The translations under genes were made by a program, and so were the position numbers. From the NCBI RefSeq assembly GCF_020400825.1, contig NZ_JAINVH010000003.1, positions 310,001 to 374,000 of the forward strand: a stretch of 64,000 nucleotides of DNA, in the 5' to 3' direction. The notes below the pieces were generated by a model, which had not been told where the DNA came from, searched no databases, and was given only the letters and a program-made list of their open reading frames with translations. Positions 4,124-10,883 of the stretch are shown one piece after another. How positions within the stretch are numbered: the stretch's first letter is position 1; each line of letters begins with the position of its first letter. The stretch is from Streptomyces sp. HPF1205 (lineage in GTDB: Bacteria; Actinomycetota; Actinomycetes; Streptomycetales; Streptomycetaceae).

Positions 4124-4347
4124 ACGGGTGCCCCGCCCCGGGGCTCGCCCGAATGGCCGAGGACGCGGAGGGGGGTTAAGGTCGGAAAGCGGCCGCTTCG
4201 CACCGGTTCGCGCACATATCGCGCGCGGGATCCCGCCGGGACCGCCCCGGCGCCGGCCCGGCGCCCAGCCCGGATCGATCGCTTTCTCACCCCGCCCCCC
4301 TGCGCAGTGGTTCACGCATGCCTTCGCGGGACGGCGGGAGGCGGGAG

Positions 4348-5601
4348 ATGGCTATGCCGACCACCCCCCTCATCCGCTCCTTCCAGCACCTGGCCGACGG
4401 GTTGGCCGACGGCCCCGGCGACCGCCCGCCCGGCGGTCGGCGAACCGGCGGGCGAACCGGGCGGCCACCCGTGGTCACGCTGTTCAGCGGCGGCCTGGAC
4501 AGCAGTTACCTGCTGCACCGGCTGCGCGACCTGGGGTTCGGCGAGGTGCACGCGCTGAGCGTCGAACTGGGCGAGGGCGAGGCCGAGGACGACCGGCGGC
4601 AGATCGCCGAGCGGCTGGGCGCCGAACTGCACGTCGTGGACGCCAGGGAGACGTTCGCGCAGGAGTTCGTGCGCCCGGCCATCGCGGCGCAGGCGGTGTA
4701 CCTGGACACGCACCCGGTGAGCTCGACGCTGAGCCGGCCGCTGATCGCGCGGGTGGCCGTGGAACTGGCCCGGCAGGTGGGCGCACCGGTCGTGCTGCAC
4801 ACCGCCAACCGCTCGCAGAACAGCCTGCGCCGGCTCAACGGGGCGCTCGGGCAGCTCGGGTTCGCCGGGTGGTACGGCAGCCCGTACGACCTGGACCCGG
4901 TCGACCGCGGGCAGAAGATCCAGGAGCTCAAGGAGGACGGGCTGGAGGAGCTGGGCGAGCGCACGGTCAGCGGCGACTCCAACCTGTGGTGCCGGGAGTT
5001 CGAGTCCGGTGTGCTGGACGACCCGGAGAACCACGCGGTGCCCGAGCACATGTTCCGGTGGAGCGCGGTGTGCCACGGGATGCCGGGCGACACCGTCGAG
5101 ATCACCTTCGCCGAAGGCGTGCCGACGTCCGTGGACGGGGTGCGCATGCCGCTGACCGAGGTGATCGACGTCCTCAACCGGCGGGCCGGCGCGTTCGGGA
5201 TCGGCCGCTACTGCGGCCTGGAGCACCTGGACGACGGCAGCAAAGTGCTGGAGATACGGGAGATGCCGGCGGCCTGCCTGCTGCTGCGCTCCTACCGCCA
5301 GGTGGAGTCCGCGACGCTGGCCGCCGAGACCGTGCGCGAGAAGATGCACCTGGAGCAGCTGTGGGTGCGCGAGGCGCTCGAAGGACGCTGGTTCGGCGAA
5401 CTGCGGGGCGCGGTGCAGTCGTTCGTGGACGCGTGCGCGCAGGCGGTGACCGGGTCCGTGACCTGGGCGCTGCGGCCGGGCGCGGCCGAGACCAGGGCGG
5501 TGCGCGCGGACCGGCCCACGTACATCCGCGACCGCGAGCAGTGGGAGCGGGAGTCGATCGCGGCGGAGTGCGCCGCGTACCCCGACGCGGCCGCGGGCTG
5601 A
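4348..5601 (+). CDS. Argininosuccinate-synthase-like PP-loop ATP pyrophosphatase
   Basis: The 417-aa product aligns along its length with ArgG. It has the PP-loop SGGLDSS near residue 46, VDARETFAQEFVRPAI, and the TLSRPLIARVAVELAR helix. The ArgG motifs that bind citrulline and aspartate are replaced: RSQNSLRR (about 154-161) stands where ArgG has KGNDQVRF, and the RVDxVENRxVGxKSR stretch reads RYCGLEHLDDGSKVLEI. ATP-dependent adenylation of a carbonyl oxygen is expected from the family, but the substrates are probably not citrulline and aspartate. ATG 4348 is chosen because GGGAGG (4336-4341) lies 6 nt upstream; ATG 4318 and 4354 are alternatives. It is the first gene of a three-gene operon, with 2 nt before the next start. 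Confidence 0.75.
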   Translation: MAMPTTPLIRSFQHLADGLADGPGDRPPGGRRTGGRTGRPPVVTLFSGGLDSSYLLHRLRDLGFGEVHALSVELGEGEAEDDRRQIAERLGAELHVVDARETFAQEFVRPAIAAQAVYLDTHPVSSTLSRPLIARVAVELARQVGAPVVLHTANRSQNSLRRLNGALGQLGFAGWYGSPYDLDPVDRGQKIQELKEDGLEELGERTVSGDSNLWCREFESGVLDDPENHAVPEHMFRWSAVCHGMPGDTVEITFAEGVPTSVDGVRMPLTEVIDVLNRRAGAFGIGRYCGLEHLDDGSKVLEIREMPAACLLLRSYRQVESATLAAETVREKMHLEQLWVREALEGRWFGELRGAVQSFVDACAQAVTGSVTWALRPGAAETRAVRADRPTYIRDREQWERESIAAECAAYPDAAAG

Positions 5602-5603
5602 CC

Positions 5604-6956
5604 ATGCGCGAGACCGCACAGACCGCACAGGCCGTCAGGGCCGAAGCCGCCGCCTGCGCCGAGCACGCGCGCGCCACGTGCCTGAGGACGGGCCCGCCGC
5701 GCCGGGTCGGGATCGAACTGGAGTGGCTGGTACGCGACGTCCGGCATCCGTCGCTGCCCGCGGACGAGGCGCGGGTCGCGGCCGCCGCCGAACGGTTCGC
5801 ACCCGGTGGGGTGTTCCCCCACGGGTCCGCGCTCAGCCGCGAGCCGGGCGGCCAGTTGGAGCTGAGCTCGCCGCCGTACGAGTCGCTGGCCGCGTGCGTG
5901 GCCGGGGTGCGCGCGGACCTGCGGGCGATGCGCGAGGAGCTCGCCGCCGCCGGGCACCGCCTGTCCGGGTACGGGATCGACCCGTGGCGCGAGCCCGCGC
6001 GGGTCTTCGTCGACCGGCCCCGGTACGCCTGCATGGAGCGGCTGTTCGACCGGTTCGGGCCGTTCGGCCGGTACATGATGGGCGCGTCCGCCTCGGTACA
6101 GGTCTGCCTGGACGCCGGTACGCAGGAGCCCGGACCGTACAACGTCCGGCGGCGCTGGTGGCTGGCCCACCGGCTCGGGCCGGTCCTCGTCGCCGCGTTC
6201 GCCAACTCGCCGATGGCGGCGGGCCGGCCGACCGGCTGGCGCTCGACCCGGCAGGTGATCTGGGCCCGGCTGGACCCGAGCAGGACCGCCGCGCCGGCCG
6301 TCCCGATGGGCACCGACCCCCGGGACGCCTGGGCGCGGTACGCCCTGGCGGCCCGCCTGATGTGCGTACGCGACCAGGACGGCGGTCCGTGGGCGAGCCC
6401 CCACACCACCACGTTCGGCCAGTGGATCGACCGCGGGTACCACGGCACCGGGGCCGCCTCCCGGCCGCCGACGATGGACGACTTCGCGTACCACCTGACC
6501 ACCCTCTTCCCCCCGGTGCGCCCGCAGGGCCACCTGGAGCTGCGGATGATCGACGCCCAGCGCGGCGAGGACGGCTGGATCGTGCCGCTGGTCGTCACCA
6601 CCGCGCTGTTCGAGGACCCGGAGGCCACCCGGGCCGCCGAGGACGCGGTGGCCGACCTGCCGCCGTCCGGGGGCTCGGGCCCGGCCGCCCCGGCGGACCC
6701 GCTGTGGCTGCGGGCATGCCGGCTCGGCCCGCACGACCCGGCGCTGGGACGGGCGGCGCTGCGCTGCTTCGACGCCGCGCTGGCCGCGCTGCCCCGGCTG
6801 GGCGTGCCGGAACTGCGACCGCTGGTGGACGGGTTCACGCAGCGGTACGTGGCGCGGGGCCGCTGTCCCGCCGACGACCTGACGCTGGCGGCGCGGCGCG
6901 GCCCGCGGTCGTGGTGGGACGGCACGGGGGAGGTACCGGAATGGCTCACCGCCTGA
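5604..6956 (+). CDS. Glutamate-cysteine ligase family (GCS2) enzyme, EgtA-like
   Basis: The 450-aa protein belongs to the GCS2 carboxylate-amine ligase family, which includes EgtA. It has RRVGIELEWLV near residue 32, the SREPGGQLELSSPP segment, a YMMGASASVQVCLD core and a C-terminal RMIDAQ motif typical of the group. The family joins the gamma-carboxylate of glutamate to an amine (cysteine in EgtA) using ATP. The rest of an egt cluster is absent, so ergothioneine synthesis is not indicated here. ATG 5604 follows the preceding TGA by 2 nt, which implies translational coupling. It probably gamma-glutamylates a substrate or product of its operon partners; this is inferred from position only. Confidence 0.75.
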   Translation: MRETAQTAQAVRAEAAACAEHARATCLRTGPPRRVGIELEWLVRDVRHPSLPADEARVAAAAERFAPGGVFPHGSALSREPGGQLELSSPPYESLAACVAGVRADLRAMREELAAAGHRLSGYGIDPWREPARVFVDRPRYACMERLFDRFGPFGRYMMGASASVQVCLDAGTQEPGPYNVRRRWWLAHRLGPVLVAAFANSPMAAGRPTGWRSTRQVIWARLDPSRTAAPAVPMGTDPRDAWARYALAARLMCVRDQDGGPWASPHTTTFGQWIDRGYHGTGAASRPPTMDDFAYHLTTLFPPVRPQGHLELRMIDAQRGEDGWIVPLVVTTALFEDPEATRAAEDAVADLPPSGGSGPAAPADPLWLRACRLGPHDPALGRAALRCFDAALAALPRLGVPELRPLVDGFTQRYVARGRCPADDLTLAARRGPRSWWDGTGEVPEWLTA

Positions 6957-6982
6957 CGGGGGAGGTACCGGCATGGCCCACC
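6924..6982 (+). repeat. Tandem duplication of a 27-bp RBS-start segment
   Basis: Two copies of a 27-bp sequence, 6924-6950 and 6956-6982, match at 25 of 27 positions. Both contain GGGGGAGG, a spacer, ATG and the next codons. The first copy encodes the C-terminus of the ligase (GEVPEW) and the second provides the ribosome binding site and start of the nitrilase. The first copy also opens a 14-codon frame at ATG 6941 that ends at 6985, inside the nitrilase start region. Confidence 0.8.
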
Positions 6983-7947
6983 TGACCGTCGCCGCGCTCC
7001 AGATCGGCACCCCGCTGTTCGACACCCCGGCCACCTTGGCGAAGGCCCGGCAGTACATCGCGGACGCCGCGCACCGCGGGGCGCGGGTGATCGTCCTGCC
7101 GGAGGCGTACCTGGGCGGCTATCCGAAGGGGCTGGACTTCGGGGTGACCGTCGGGGCCCGCTCGGACCGCGGCCGGGAGGAGTTCCGCCGCTACTTCGAG
7201 TCGGCCGTGCGGGTGCCGGGCCCCGAGACGGACTCCCTGGCCGCGCTCGCCCAGGACCTCGGCGTGCACATCGTGGCGGGCGTCGTCGAACGGGCCGGCG
7301 CCACCTTGTACTGCACCGCGCTCTTCTTCGGACCGGGCGCGGGACCGGGCGGGCCGGGCGCGGGACCGGGCGGGCCGGGCGCGGGACCGGGCGGCGGGCC
7401 CGGCGGGCTGCTCGCCAAGCACCGCAAGCTGGTGCCGACCGCCGGCGAGCGGCTGCTGTGGGGGCGCGGCGACGGCTCCACGCTGCCCGTCGTCGACACC
7501 GGCGAGGTCCGGCTCGGCTCGGCCATCTGCTGGGAGAACTACATGCCGCTGCTGCGTACCGCGATGTACGCCAAGGGGGTCGACGTGTGGTGCGCGCCCT
7601 CGGTGGACCCGCGGGAGAGCTGGCAGGTGACGATGCGCCACGTCGCGCTGGAGGGGCGCTGCTTCGTGGTCTGCGCCAACCAGTACCTGCTGCGCTCCGA
7701 CCTGCCGGCGGACCTGCACCCGGTGCAGGGCGAGGCGCCCGGCACGGTGCTCATCGACGGCGGCAGCGTCATCGTCTCGCCGCTCGGCGCCGTCCTGGCC
7801 GGTCCGCTGCGCGGCGGCGAGGGCATCCTCACCGCCGACCTGGACCTCGGCGACCTGGCGCGGGCCCGCTTCGACTTCGACCCGGTCGGCCACTACGCCA
7901 GGCCGGACGTGTTCACCCTGCTGGTGGACGACCGGGAACGGACGTAG
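6973..7947 (+). CDS. Nitrilase (carbon-nitrogen hydrolase family)
   Basis: The 324-aa protein is a true nitrilase-type member of the C-N hydrolase superfamily. The catalytic triad is visible: Glu in LPEAYLGGYPKG (about 44), Lys in KHRKLVPT (about 151) and Cys in CWENYMPL (residue 186), with the nitrilase signature AICWENYMPLLR. GDGSTLPV is also typical. Nitrilases hydrolyse R-CN to a carboxylate and ammonia. An insertion of Gly/Pro/Ala repeats lies around residues 121-141, between the Glu and Lys blocks, probably a surface loop. The start at 6973 has GGGGGAGG at a good distance. It is the last gene of the operon; its 3' end overlaps the convergent DUF4031 gene by 35 bp. Confidence 0.88.
   Translation: MAHLTVAALQIGTPLFDTPATLAKARQYIADAAHRGARVIVLPEAYLGGYPKGLDFGVTVGARSDRGREEFRRYFESAVRVPGPETDSLAALAQDLGVHIVAGVVERAGATLYCTALFFGPGAGPGGPGAGPGGPGAGPGGGPGGLLAKHRKLVPTAGERLLWGRGDGSTLPVVDTGEVRLGSAICWENYMPLLRTAMYAKGVDVWCAPSVDPRESWQVTMRHVALEGRCFVVCANQYLLRSDLPADLHPVQGEAPGTVLIDGGSVIVSPLGAVLAGPLRGGEGILTADLDLGDLARARFDFDPVGHYARPDVFTLLVDDRERT
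7336..7400 (+). repeat. 21-bp in-frame tandem repeat inside the nitrilase gene
   Basis: About three copies of a 21-bp unit encode the seven-residue period GAGPGGP. The copies are nearly identical at DNA level, which points to slippage or recent expansion. The repeat length keeps the frame. Confidence 0.8.
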
Positions 7948-8218
7948 CCGCCGGGTCCGGCCCCCGCTTGCGGCGGCGCAGGCCCGCCCGGGTGAGCAGC
8001 CGCACGATCTCCCGGCTGCGGACCTCGACGGCGCCGAGCCGGACGGCGTCCTCGTAGCGGGCCGCCGGTATGTCGTAGTGGTCGCGCTCGAAGGCGCGGC
8101 GCGGGGCGCCGAGGCGCGCGGCGAAGGCGTGCAGTTCGTCGTACGAGCTGTCGCTGACCAGGTGGGACCAAAGGCGGCCGTGGCCGGGCCAGGTCGGGGG
8201 GTCGATGTAGACGGCCAT
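7913..8218 (-). CDS. DUF4031 domain-containing protein
   Basis: This 101-aa protein starts with MAVYIDPPTWPGHGRLWSHL and contains LHAFAARLGAPRRAFERDHYDIP, the recognisable core of the small DUF4031 family found in actinobacteria. Its function is not known. The length is normal. The last 35 bp overlap the nitrilase gene on the other strand. It lies 13 bp downstream of the next minus-strand gene and could be co-transcribed with it. Confidence 0.8.
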   Translation of the reverse strand: MAVYIDPPTWPGHGRLWSHLVSDSSYDELHAFAARLGAPRRAFERDHYDIPAARYEDAVRLGAVEVRSREIVRLLTRAGLRRRKRGPDPAATSVPGRPPAG

Positions 8219-8231
8219 CGGCGGCGGCCGG

Positions 8232-8606
8232 TCAGGAGTCGCCGCGGCCGGGTGCCCCGAGGGCGCCCACGGGGGCGATCACGGCGGCGCCGCGTTCGCA
8301 GACCCAGTGGGGGTCGGGGCCGAGTTCGGGCTCGACGGCCAGGGCGTGCGGCTCGTCGCACCGCGGGCACAGCGGCCAGCGGCCGTGGGTCTCCATCAGG
8401 GCGTCCTGGACGTCCTGGGCGAGCAGGCCGGGGATGTACGCGGCGCCGTCCGGCCACTGCTCCAGCCACCAGCGGCGCCGGCTCAGCGCCTCCTCGACGA
8501 GGGAGACGATGTCCGCCTCCGCCGCGTCGCGGGCGGTCAGGTCGGCGAGGATCGCGGCCCGCGCCTGGTGCAGCACGGTTTCGGCGGTGGCGTCCATACG
8601 GCCCAT
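8232..8606 (-). CDS. Hypothetical protein with a possible zinc knuckle
   Basis: The family is not recognised. The 124-aa product is mostly helical and acidic, with LPGLLAQDVQDALM-like amphipathic segments and a C-terminal CPRCDEPH motif followed by WVCERG. These three Cys and one His could form a small metal site. ATG 8606 and ATG 8597 are both possible starts; neither has a Shine-Dalgarno motif. It is divergent from the SIS regulator and may be co-transcribed with the DUF4031 gene. Confidence 0.6.
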   Translation of the reverse strand: MGRMDATAETVLHQARAAILADLTARDAAEADIVSLVEEALSRRRWWLEQWPDGAAYIPGLLAQDVQDALMETHGRWPLCPRCDEPHALAVEPELGPDPHWVCERGAAVIAPVGALGAPGRGDS

Positions 8607-8724
8607 TGTCGCAAGTCCGGCCCGGTGGGCGGCGGGCCGGCGGGGACGGCCGAGGGGCGGCCGAGGCGCGGCCGCGCAGGGCGCGCCCGCGGCCCCCGGG
8701 TGGCGCTCGCACGGCGAGTGCGCC

Positions 8725-8757
8725 TTGACGCCGCGCCTGCCTGAAAATAGCTTTCAG
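8725..8757 (+). promoter_or_regulatory. Promoter with a CTGAAA-N5-TTTCAG operator before the SIS regulator
   Basis: TTGACG (8725-8730), a 17-bp spacer and TAGCTT (8748-8753) form a good vegetative promoter that would start transcription close to GTG 8761, giving a leaderless mRNA. The perfect inverted repeat CTGAAAATAGCTTTCAG (8741-8757) covers the -10 box. A second palindrome, GGAAACTTTCC (8778-8788), lies just inside the gene. Placement over the promoter suggests autorepression by the RpiR-type protein; this is inference. Confidence 0.55.
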
Positions 8758-8760
8758 AGC

Positions 8761-9732
8761 GTGACCTACAGCGTGAAGGAAACTTTCCCCCCGAGCGTCC
8801 GCGCCCTCCGCGGCGTGCCGGGCGCGCCCAGCAGTTCCGTGACGCCCCCCGACCCGGGGGCCCTGGCCGCCAAGGTCCGCACCCTCGCCCCCTCGATGAC
8901 CCGCTCCATGCAGCGGGTGGCGGAAGCCGTCGCCGGTGACCCGGCGGGCTGCTCCCACCTGACCGTGACCGCGCTCGCCGTCCGTACCGGGACCAGCGAG
9001 GCCACCGTCGTACGCACCGCCCGGCTGCTGGGCTACCCCGGCTACCGGGACCTGCGGCTGGCCCTGGCCGCGCTCGCCGCCCAGCAGGCGACGGGCGCGC
9101 CGCCCGCCGTCACCGCCGACATCGCCGTCGACGACCCGCTCGCCGACGTGGTCACCAAGCTCGCCCTGGAGGAGCAGCAGACCCTCGCCGACACCGCGGC
9201 CCAGCTCGACATGGCGCAACTGGAGGCCGCGGTCAACGCGCTGGCCGGGGCGCGGCGGACCGACGTCTACGGGATCGGCGCGTCCGGACTGGTCGCCCAG
9301 GACCTCGCGCAGAAGCTGCTGCGCATCGGGCTGATCGCGCACGCGCTGTCCGACCCGCACCTGGCCGTCACCAACGCCGTGCAACTGCGGCCCGGCGACG
9401 TGGCGCTGGCCATCACCCACTCCGGCTCCACGCACGACGTCATCGAGCCGCTGCGGGCCGCCTTCGACCGCGGGGCCACCACGATCGCCATCACCGGGCG
9501 CGCGGACGGCGCCGTCACCCAGTACGCCGACCTGGTGCTCACCACCTCCAGTTCCCGGGAGAGCGAGCTCAGACCCGCGGCGATGTCCAGCCGCACCAGC
9601 CAACTGCTCGTGGTGGACTGCCTGTTCATCGCGGTGGCGCAGCGGACGTACGAGGACGCCGCGCCCGCCCTTTCGGCCTCCTACGAGGCGCTGGCCCACC
9701 GGCACACCCCGCGCCGGCAGGGCGGCTCCTGA
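8761..9732 (+). CDS. MurR/RpiR family transcriptional regulator with SIS domain
   Basis: The 323-aa protein has an N-terminal RpiR-type helix-turn-helix (ALAVRTGTSEATVVRTARLLGY) and a C-terminal SIS sugar-phosphate-binding domain (DVYGIGASGLVAQDLAQKLL, LAITHSGSTHDVIE). Such regulators sense phosphosugars. The adjacent murQ makes MurNAc-6-phosphate or a related cell-wall sugar the likely effector. GTG 8761 coincides with the predicted transcription start; GTG 8773 (VKETFPP) is an alternative. A 50-bp C-rich tract follows the gene before murQ, so both may be on one transcript. Confidence 0.85.
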   Translation: MTYSVKETFPPSVRALRGVPGAPSSSVTPPDPGALAAKVRTLAPSMTRSMQRVAEAVAGDPAGCSHLTVTALAVRTGTSEATVVRTARLLGYPGYRDLRLALAALAAQQATGAPPAVTADIAVDDPLADVVTKLALEEQQTLADTAAQLDMAQLEAAVNALAGARRTDVYGIGASGLVAQDLAQKLLRIGLIAHALSDPHLAVTNAVQLRPGDVALAITHSGSTHDVIEPLRAAFDRGATTIAITGRADGAVTQYADLVLTTSSSRESELRPAAMSSRTSQLLVVDCLFIAVAQRTYEDAAPALSASYEALAHRHTPRRQGGS

Positions 9733-9735
9733 CCC

Positions 9736-9785
9736 GCCGCCACCTCCGCCTCCACCTCCACCGCCACCTCCACCACCGCCCCGTT
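9736..9785 (+). repeat. Pyrimidine-rich CCACCTCC tract
   Basis: About 50 bp consist almost only of CCACCT and CCGCC steps, giving a long polypyrimidine run on the plus strand and a GGTGG-rich run on the minus strand. It lies in the 221-bp gap between the regulator and murQ. No coding function is seen. Confidence 0.6.
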
Positions 9786-9953
9786 CCCGGCACCCGTACG
9801 GCCGGACCGCCAGGCGCCGTCCGGGCCCGGGCCCGCCCGCACCCCGCACCCCGCGCCCGTACGCGGGCCGACTCCCGTGCCCCCGCGCATCCCGCGCCGA
9901 CCGCGTCACCCATCCCCCCCTTGCACCTCCCGAGAAGGATGAACGAGCCGCTT

Positions 9954-10883
9954 ATGTCCCAGTACACCCGTCTGCGCCGCGAGCTGGAGACGCTGACCAC
10001 CGAGGCGTTCCGTCCCGAGCTCGCCGAGATCGACCGGCTGCCCACGCTGGAGATCGCCCGGACCATGAACGCGGAGGACGCGACCGTGCCCGCCGCGGTG
10101 GCCGGGCAGCTGCCGGCGATCGCCGCGGCCATCGACGCGATCGCCGCGCGGATGGCGGAGGGCGGGCGGCTGGTCTACGCGGGCGCCGGCACGGCGGGCC
10201 GGCTGGGGGTGCTGGACGCGAGCGAGTGCCCGCCGACGTTCAACACGACCCCCGGGCGCGAGGTGGTGGGGATCATCGCGGGCGGCCCCGAGGCGATGGT
10301 GACCTCCGTCGAGGGGGCCGAGGACAGCAGGGAGCTGGCCGCGGCGGACCTGGACCGGCTCGGTGTGACGGCGGCCGACTGCGTCGTCGGGATCTCCGCC
10401 TCGGGCCGCACCCCGTACGCGCTCGGCGCGGTCGAGCACGCCCGGGCGCTGGGCGCGCTGACCGTCGGCCTGTCCTGCAACGCCGGCTCCCCGCTGGCCG
10501 CGGCGGCGGACCACGGCATCGAGGTCGTGGTCGGCCCCGAACTGCTGTCCGGCTCCACCCGGCTGAAGGCGGGCACCGCCCAGAAGCTCGTACTGAACAT
10601 GCTCTCGACGATCACGATGATCCGGCTGGGCAAGACGTACGGCAATCTGATGGTCGACGTGCGCGCCTCCAACGAGAAGCTGCGCGCCCGCTCGCGCCGT
10701 ATCGTCGCGCTGGCCACCGGGGCGGGCGAGGACGCCGTCGAGGCCGCGCTGACCGCCACCGAGGGCGAGGTCAAGCCGGCCATCCTCACCCTCCTCGCGC
10801 ACGTCGACGCGCCCACCGCGGCCCGTCTGCTCACCGAGTCCGGCGGCCGGCTGCGCGCCGCCCTGGACGCCGCCCGCCCGTAG
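9954..10883 (+). CDS. murQ: N-acetylmuramic acid 6-phosphate etherase
   Basis: MurQ cleaves the lactyl ether of MurNAc-6-phosphate to GlcNAc-6-phosphate and D-lactate in cytoplasmic peptidoglycan recycling. Family motifs are clear: EIDRLPTLEIARTMNAEDATVP at the N-terminus, VYAGAGTAGRLGVLDASECPPTF with the catalytic Glu, the SIS strand VVGISASGRTPYALGA, and LKAGTAQKLVLNMLSTITM. Length is about 309 aa. ATG 9954 fits the family best; ATG 9939 and TTG 9921 are in frame, and none has an ideal ribosome binding site. GlcNAc-6-phosphate made here would feed NagA, encoded at 23466 in this window. Confidence 0.92.
   Translation: MSQYTRLRRELETLTTEAFRPELAEIDRLPTLEIARTMNAEDATVPAAVAGQLPAIAAAIDAIAARMAEGGRLVYAGAGTAGRLGVLDASECPPTFNTTPGREVVGIIAGGPEAMVTSVEGAEDSRELAAADLDRLGVTAADCVVGISASGRTPYALGAVEHARALGALTVGLSCNAGSPLAAAADHGIEVVVGPELLSGSTRLKAGTAQKLVLNMLSTITMIRLGKTYGNLMVDVRASNEKLRARSRRIVALATGAGEDAVEAALTATEGEVKPAILTLLAHVDAPTAARLLTESGGRLRAALDAARP

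Follow-up and report, generated by a model that had tools for sequence, protein, structure and literature searches.

A rare three-gene set of Streptomyces sp. HPF1205 places a putative ArgG-like nitrile synthetase beside a gamma-glutamyl ligase and a nitrilase

Results

A compact set of three genes

Three genes lie close together on the forward strand of a 64,000-nucleotide (nt) stretch of the Streptomyces sp. HPF1205 genome (RefSeq assembly GCF_020400825.1, contig NZ_JAINVH010000003.1, positions 310,001 to 374,000; hereafter the window). Gene 1 (4348-5601, +) encodes an ArgG-like PP-loop enzyme of family NF038212 (argG_rel), by profile, PDB and model matches probably a nitrile synthetase of the ArtA type, dependent on adenosine triphosphate (ATP). 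Gene 2 (5604-6956, +) was assigned by PF04107, TIGR03444 and a tree as a GCS2 gamma-glutamyl ligase of the EgtA type, the second copy in this genome, and gene 3 (6973-7947, +) as a NIT4-type nitrilase by PF00795, the PDB entry 6i00 and its catalytic residues. The open reading frame (ORF) coordinates bear out the tight packing described in an earlier note on this DNA, with gaps of 2 nt between genes 1 and 2 and 16 nt between genes 2 and 3. That note had also credited the genes with good ribosome binding sites. By eye, such sites were visible 5' of gene 1 (GGGAGG, 4336-4341, +) and gene 3 (GGGGGAGG, 6958-6965, +), but no Shine-Dalgarno-like motif was seen 5' of gene 2, so that the statement is true for two of the three genes. 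Gene 2 may be translationally coupled. An in-frame ATG at 4318, upstream of the gene 1 start, is also open.

The set recurs as a unit in the genus

The genus was surveyed in 35 genomes, with gene 1 called at an expectation value (E) <= 1e-80 and the nitrilase at E <= 1e-50. The gene 1 family was found in five genomes, the nitrilase in four and the ligase clade of the window in three. In three genomes (G000, which is that of the window, G028 and G034) all three genes are adjacent and in the same order. The co-occurrence check proposed in the earlier note found the set to be rare, yet the window-type ligase and the close nitrilase occur in the genus only where gene 1 adjoins (3/35). Two other genomes, G015 (L065) and G027 (L060), have gene 1 with neither gene 2 nor gene 3 near it, and the fourth nitrilase (G010), 52-56% identical, lies by genes for a pyridoxal-phosphate-dependent enzyme and a LysR regulator (the latter by eye).

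The flanks of the three trio loci have no family in common at matching places; since they differ, the trio itself is the unit. The window proteins share 64-77% identity with those of the other two copies, in which genes 2 and 3 are spaced more loosely (84 and 217 nt). Pairwise comparison of the three copies gave ratios of nonsynonymous to synonymous substitution rates (dN/dS) of 0.12-0.48, and the trio genes are under purifying selection. The same order in three genomes together with these ratios is more than chance.

Gene 1 resembles the nitrile synthetase ArtA

Gene 1 scored 555.3 bits against NF038212, "argininosuccinate synthase-related protein" (cut-off 425), a family name that gives no function, and failed both ArgG equivalog cut-offs (NF001770, 200.1 of 334 bits; TIGR00032, 184.5 of 268.2 bits). 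The closest PDB chains were those of nitrile synthetase, 9lei and 9leh (E 2e-95), compared with E 1e-41 and weaker for true ArgG structures, and 156 of 367 residues aligned with ArtA are identical (42.5%). An AlphaFold2 model was built from 20 relatives (mean predicted local distance difference test score 84.6). Its best structural match was ArtA (Z 46.8, root-mean-square deviation 2.6, 380 residues aligned), ahead of the best ArgG (Z 41.4, deviation 5.5, 374 residues). The ArgG-like nitrile synthetases ArtA and NitB are credited to Zeng et al. 2025 and Kishimoto et al. 2025 in PMC13060819. On these matches, gene 1 joins this recently described kind of enzyme as a new member.

Gene 1 was further aligned with Thermus ArgG and ArtA. 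The PP-loop SGGLDSS, correctly read in the earlier note, is kept at residues 47-53 (4486-4506, +). The ArgG segments KGNDQVRF and RVDxVENR, which that note considered lost, indeed read SQNSLRRL (residues 156-163) and RYCGLEHL (residues 287-294), but Asn120, Arg124, Ser173 and Glu258 of Thermus ArgG are retained. We take these four to be the contacts of the free amino acid citrulline. Thr116, Asp121, Ser182 and Tyr270 are replaced by Asn, Ser, Glu and Arg, and ArtA is identical at these positions. Thr116 and Asp121, where gene 1 has N154 and S159, presumably contact aspartate. The Glu that replaces Ser182 is E217, within SGDSNLWCREF (residues 208-218; 4969-5001, +), and the segment from E292 to R304 (5221-5259, +) retains Glu258 and has Arg for Tyr270; both E217 and R304 are common to gene 1 and ArtA. 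At Tyr84 of Thermus ArgG, gene 1 has His122 and ArtA keeps Tyr. This pattern suggests that the enzyme can still bind and adenylate the amide of an amino acid but does not bind aspartate, and that Glu and Arg at the replaced positions may accommodate an amino acid shorter than citrulline.

According to PMC13060819, the amide is contacted in ArtA by Q146, S197 and D199. Gene 1 has Q157, S208 and D210 at these positions, at a constant offset of 11, and the structural alignment agrees. S208 and D210 belong to SGDSNLWCREF, and Q157 to HTANRSQNSLRRLN (residues 151-164; 4798-4839, +), which replaces ArgG HGATGKGNDQVRFE. Q157 is the telling residue, because Ser and Asp are also present in ArgG. All three are invariant in 20 of 20 aligned rows of one gene 1 family alignment. 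Gln stands at the Q157 position in 52 of 55 aligned rows; the exceptions are an unaligned fragment and the two ArgG paralogues of the genome, of which the canonical one has Gly and the third ArgG has Glu. Among the 52 is L067, a relative at 35% that falls below the family cut-off and lacks E217. The earlier note, which had proposed that an adenylated amide is "substituted or dehydrated", left this branch open; the ArtA match now gives good support to the predicted conversion of an amide to a nitrile by dehydration.

The genome (8.4 Mb, 187 contigs) carries a canonical argG on contig C34 and a third ArgG-type gene on contig C135. The latter (L069:8581-10041) encodes 486 amino acids, and ketosynthase- and carrier-like genes (by eye) lie a few kb away. 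That gene 1 is an ordinary ArgG, which would have refuted the earlier note, was rejected on the cut-offs, the replaced residues and the canonical argG elsewhere in the genome. The trio copies of gene 1 form a clade in both gene 1 trees, the second of which left out the fragments L132, L135 and L137 and the third ArgG. In these trees ArtA, which we take to be fungal in origin, groups with Actinomadura members (support 71), a weak hint of gene transfer.

Gene 2 is a second EgtA-type ligase

Gene 2 belongs to GCS2 (PF04107, 212.8 bits) and passes the EgtA cut-off (TIGR03444, 411.7 versus 370.8 bits). Among its neighbours in the window, which are of other families or unmatched, there is no egt gene. 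The earlier description of a GCS2 ligase without an ergothioneine cluster is thus correct for the locus but not for the genome: on contig C101 a complete cluster was found, in which the genome's own EgtA gene adjoins egtB and a fused egtC-egtD. Because this cluster is complete, gene 2 is a paralogue free for another role, and a stray ergothioneine gene was discarded as its sole reading.

All 40 EgtA-type matches from the 35 genomes were placed in a ligase tree, L173 by its longer piece only; the first tree and alignment held 33 of them, and the remaining seven were added later. The ligases of the three trio loci group as a separate clade (local support 1.0) inside a larger EgtA-type group, where the EgtA labels derive from the TIGR03444 search and egtB, egtC and egtD were verified for the cluster of the window genome. 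Of the 173 columns that 30 EgtA-labelled sequences of the first alignment conserve, 12 are changed in every trio ligase, several of them conservatively, and 161 are retained in at least one. The 12 changed columns make an altered acceptor plausible. In the trio genome G034, the other EgtA-type gene (L173, about 754-2045) matches in two separate frames.

Gene 3 is related to plant NIT4

Gene 3 is a member of the CN_hydrolase family (PF00795, 173.7 bits), and its closest PDB entry is Arabidopsis thaliana NIT4 (6i00, E 1e-103), with 160 of 292 aligned residues identical (55%). The Glu-Lys-Cys triad noticed earlier is present as E44, K152 and C186, and is extended by a fourth residue, E159, to a catalytic tetrad (E76, K163, E170 and C197 in NIT4). 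The lid arginine and its Asp partner are likewise found (R63 and D301; R95 and D317 in NIT4). This arginine is conserved in all known NIT4 enzymes that accept beta-cyanoalanine, as stated in PMC6637149 and PMC6214922. Gene 3 departs from NIT4 at two of three specificity positions, having Gly (G158) for Leu169 and Pro (P213) for Ser224, where the other two trio nitrilases have Ala and His. It further differs from NIT4 by a Gly/Pro-rich loop, which is not present in aligned relatives and is encoded by an in-frame 21-bp tandem repeat of 3.1 copies (7329-7394, +; seen in sequence and alignment).

Relatives of gene 1 have other partners

In a survey of 394 Streptomycetaceae genomes the gene 1 family exceeded the cut-off in 28, and 29 other loci were fetched. 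When 396 genomes drawn from across the phylum were searched, only the window's own gene 1 matched at E <= 1e-80. Among the neighbours at the 29 loci, of which representatives were searched against Pfam, a PF10014-type dioxygenase cluster adjoins the gene 1 relative in eight loci, an AMP-binding cluster lies at most nine genes away in 14, and an ATP-grasp-like pair, below Pfam cut-offs, adjoins it in four. Relatives of gene 1 are also carried by eight records of proteobacterial plasmids. Seven such loci were inspected (L160-L166; Burkholderia, Bradyrhizobium, Agrobacterium, Rhizobium, Mesorhizobium and Vibrio); a relative of the PF10014 dioxygenase adjoins the gene 1 relative or is one ORF away in all seven, and an EamA exporter relative lies near in five. 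Partners of this kind are in keeping with an amino acid, either free or carrier-bound, as substrate. Adenylation codes of nonribosomal peptide synthetases (NRPS) encoded beside the relatives were also considered as a guide to the substrate; the code read by eye was uninformative and was not used.

Some of these loci have features of their own. In L163 the ArgG-like and dioxygenase parts lie within one annotated gene (7914-9878). In L064 (7909-11699) the gene 1 relative stands beside a protein over the BesD lysine chlorinase cut-off (455.3 of 450 bits) and a fused protein that resembles a 3-isopropylmalate dehydratase small subunit joined to a dehydrogenase. The gene 1 relative of L066 (about 9076-10223) is split across two reading frames.

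Nitrilase relatives occur without gene 1

The nitrilase was searched at E <= 1e-75 in 200 Streptomycetaceae genomes and found in nine, of which three have the trio, three an amidotransferase-type locus and one an asparagine-synthase-type locus, while two are remote. Pfam was run on the proteins of L146, L149 and L150, and the other nitrilase loci were assigned by similarity. The four close relatives without gene 1 are 68-70% identical. Three of them lie in a conserved cluster (L146:8902-17233, L147:9237-17413 and L148:1361-9700) that encodes an ATP-grasp ligase, a WelO5-like oxygenase, a class II glutamine amidotransferase and a YbaK-like protein of transfer RNA (tRNA) editing. Genes for a regulator of the LysR type and an exporter resembling EamA were also recognised by eye. 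The cluster also holds a PP-loop-like protein with GGGKDSS (by eye), which gave no Pfam or NCBIfam match; against the PDB, the L146 copy gave a short match to a TAL effector chain (E 6e-9, with no single stretch passing by itself) and a second match at chance level. The cluster may be a further pathway to a nitrile or amide amino acid, with self-protection by tRNA editing. In L149 (1-9962) the nitrilase relative lies with an asparagine-synthase-like enzyme, two ATP-grasp ligases and an NRPS adenylation-like ORF. The seven closest nitrilases found are all accompanied by ATP-dependent amide-forming or ligase genes.

A class-wide search at E <= 1e-100 matched 6 of 394 genomes, namely the window's own, one of the remote Streptomycetaceae nitrilases again, and four at 50-57% identity. 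These four, all of other families, lie in surroundings without gene 1, gene 2 or the other ligases tested. The nitrilase of L151, read in frame, has the same lid Arg.

Flanking genes of the window trio

Upstream of the trio lie a CutC-family gene on the opposite strand and an ORF without Pfam match. Downstream, a DUF4031 gene and an unmatched ORF on the opposite strand are followed by two SIS-domain genes. None of the flanking genes hints at the pathway of the trio.

Discussion

A possible route to a capped nitrile amino acid

The observation of the trio is sound, and the chemistry proposed in the earlier note points the right way; the substrate, the product and the role of the nitrilase we infer. 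We give about even chances to a three-gene pathway in which asparagine would be turned into a nitrile amino acid and capped with a gamma-glutamyl group, with the nitrilase clearing the free nitrile. Initially, the ArgG-like enzyme, a class assigned by homology, would take a free amino acid, in all likelihood L-asparagine, and adenylate the oxygen of its side-chain amide. As the aspartate site of ArgG is gone, nothing would add to the adenylate and elimination would win; adenosine monophosphate would leave and beta-cyano-L-alanine would be formed. The ligase would then link the gamma-carboxyl group of glutamate to the amino group of this nitrile amino acid. Its class is supported by the profile matches, and the acceptor is suggested by the likeness of CH2-CN in beta-cyanoalanine to CH2-SH in cysteine, the normal acceptor of EgtA. 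The product, gamma-glutamyl-beta-cyanoalanine, would be the stored or exported form. Finally, the nitrilase, likewise well placed as to class, would hydrolyse uncapped beta-cyanoalanine to asparagine or aspartate, as a protection or a reset. The predicted classes of genes 2 and 3 fit beside an amide-to-nitrile enzyme. Also in favour of the pathway are the ArtA match with its amide contacts, the argG and the complete egt cluster elsewhere in the genome, the NIT4 match with tetrad and lid pair, the adjacency of all three genes in the same three genomes, the amino-acid-using enzymes beside relatives of gene 1, and the ATP-grasp, amidotransferase or asparagine-synthase-like genes beside close nitrilases.

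Several observations weigh against this pathway. A nitrile made and destroyed by one set of enzymes needs a cap or a compartment that separates the two activities. Outside the trio the genes keep other company: 27 of the 29 other Streptomycetaceae gene 1 loci have neither ligase nor nitrilase (the remaining two have the trio), and all 32 loci of named genomes are without genes 2 or 3, a set that overlaps the 29, has flanks of about 6 kb, some shorter, and includes one relative only 25% identical. The trio was found in one genus only, outside which close nitrilase and gene 1 each occur without the other, and the nitrilase loci without gene 1 count against a fixed trio. Since just 12 of 173 EgtA columns are changed, the ligase may still make gamma-glutamylcysteine. 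In the nitrilase, two of three NIT4 specificity positions are altered, and the lid arginine is also present in remoter nitrilases in other settings (L150). Moreover, PMC7503981 reports that NIT4-like enzymes of fungi accept arylaliphatic nitriles as well, and that a bacterial enzyme 58% identical to NIT4 shows low beta-cyanoalanine activity. Given this wider or weaker activity, likeness to NIT4 alone does not fix the substrate.

Alternative substrates and roles

The main rival substrate is glutamine. We consider it unlikely, though a serious contender, that glutamine or another free amide amino acid would be converted to 4-cyano-2-aminobutyrate, gamma-glutamylated and cleared by the nitrilase. 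The nitrile of auranthine derives from glutamine. ArtA and NitB, the characterised relatives of gene 1, are cited with auranthine biosynthesis in PMC13060819, and this link points to glutamine over asparagine. The amide-contacting residues and E217/R304, common to gene 1 and ArtA, and the two pocket positions at which gene 3 departs from a beta-cyanoalanine enzyme also agree with glutamine. However, the kinship with NIT4 and the lid arginine favour beta-cyanoalanine, the EgtA-type acceptor site should better suit a cysteine-like compound, and His122 in place of Tyr means that the pockets of gene 1 and ArtA are not identical.

The order of the reactions may also differ, as it is not fixed by gene order. 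The ligase could act first and the ArgG-like enzyme dehydrate the amide of a gamma-glutamyl dipeptide, or the nitrilase could stand on the main line and make the product acid or amide. A role of the nitrilase within the pathway is suggested by the close nitrilases beside ATP-grasp, amidotransferase and asparagine-synthase-like genes. Against these variants, which we regard as less probable still than a start from glutamine, the four presumed citrulline contacts of ArgG are retained in gene 1, and a passage from amide through nitrile to acid would be a wasteful deamidation unless something happens between.

It is improbable that the trio is a thiol or stress operon, in which extra gamma-glutamylcysteine would be made, environmental nitriles degraded and the ArgG-like enzyme functionally unrelated. 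The ligase does exceed the EgtA cut-off, and the NIT4-type nitrilases of 50-57% identity stand without gene 1, gene 2 or the tested ligases in four of four other-family loci. However, a complete egt cluster is present in the same genome, the window-type ligase and close nitrilase go only with gene 1 in the genus, and the trio is kept as a unit amid differing flanks. A diverged but genuine argininosuccinate synthase or a duplicate from the arginine pathway, to which the ArgG fold and PP-loop could point, is scarcely credible with gene 1 at 200.1 of the 334 bits required, its aspartate-contact residues replaced and two other ArgG-type genes, one of them the canonical argG, already in the genome.

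Relation to known systems

A literature search, covering titles and abstract openings with subscription papers mostly outside its reach, found no description of the trio, which as far as searches reach is an undescribed combination. The earlier statement that no described pathway has this set therefore stands for the trio, but its ArgG-like enzyme has a counterpart in ArtA/NitB (PDB 9LEH, 9LEI). Fold, amide contacts and sequence ally gene 1 with these enzymes; they are cited with an NRPS product, auranthine, whereas gene 1 is accompanied by a GCS2 ligase and a nitrilase and has His122 for Tyr. Gene 2 keeps most conserved columns of EgtA but differs from it in its separate clade, its place outside the egt cluster and its status as a second copy. 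Gene 3 has the catalytic tetrad and the lid pair of NIT4, unlike it in pocket and loop. PesC of the nitrilobacillins also performs ATP-dependent amide-to-nitrile chemistry by adenylation; in contrast to gene 1 it is asparagine-synthetase-like, takes a peptide substrate and carries out the amidation step as well (PMC13060819).

Gamma-glutamyl-beta-cyanoalanine is known from vetch seeds (PMC4283224), and plants form beta-cyanoalanine from cyanide and cysteine (PMC8955678). The product proposed for the trio is the same, but its source would be asparagine, with no cyanide involved, so bacteria may make a vetch-like compound without cyanide. That one metabolite in plants and bacteria reflects convergent evolution is a tentative idea, to which we give rather less credence than to the pathway.

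ArgG-fold ATP-dependent nitrile synthetases are a recent addition to the literature (2025, cited in PMC13060819). If the proposed pathway is true, these enzymes would also serve a minimal bacterial route to a nitrile amino acid, which could be tested directly using three enzymes and simple substrates. The pathway would be an example of a cysteine ligase paralogue turned to a cysteine-like nitrile, and the NCBI family "argininosuccinate synthase-related protein" would gain a candidate function in both actinobacteria and proteobacteria.

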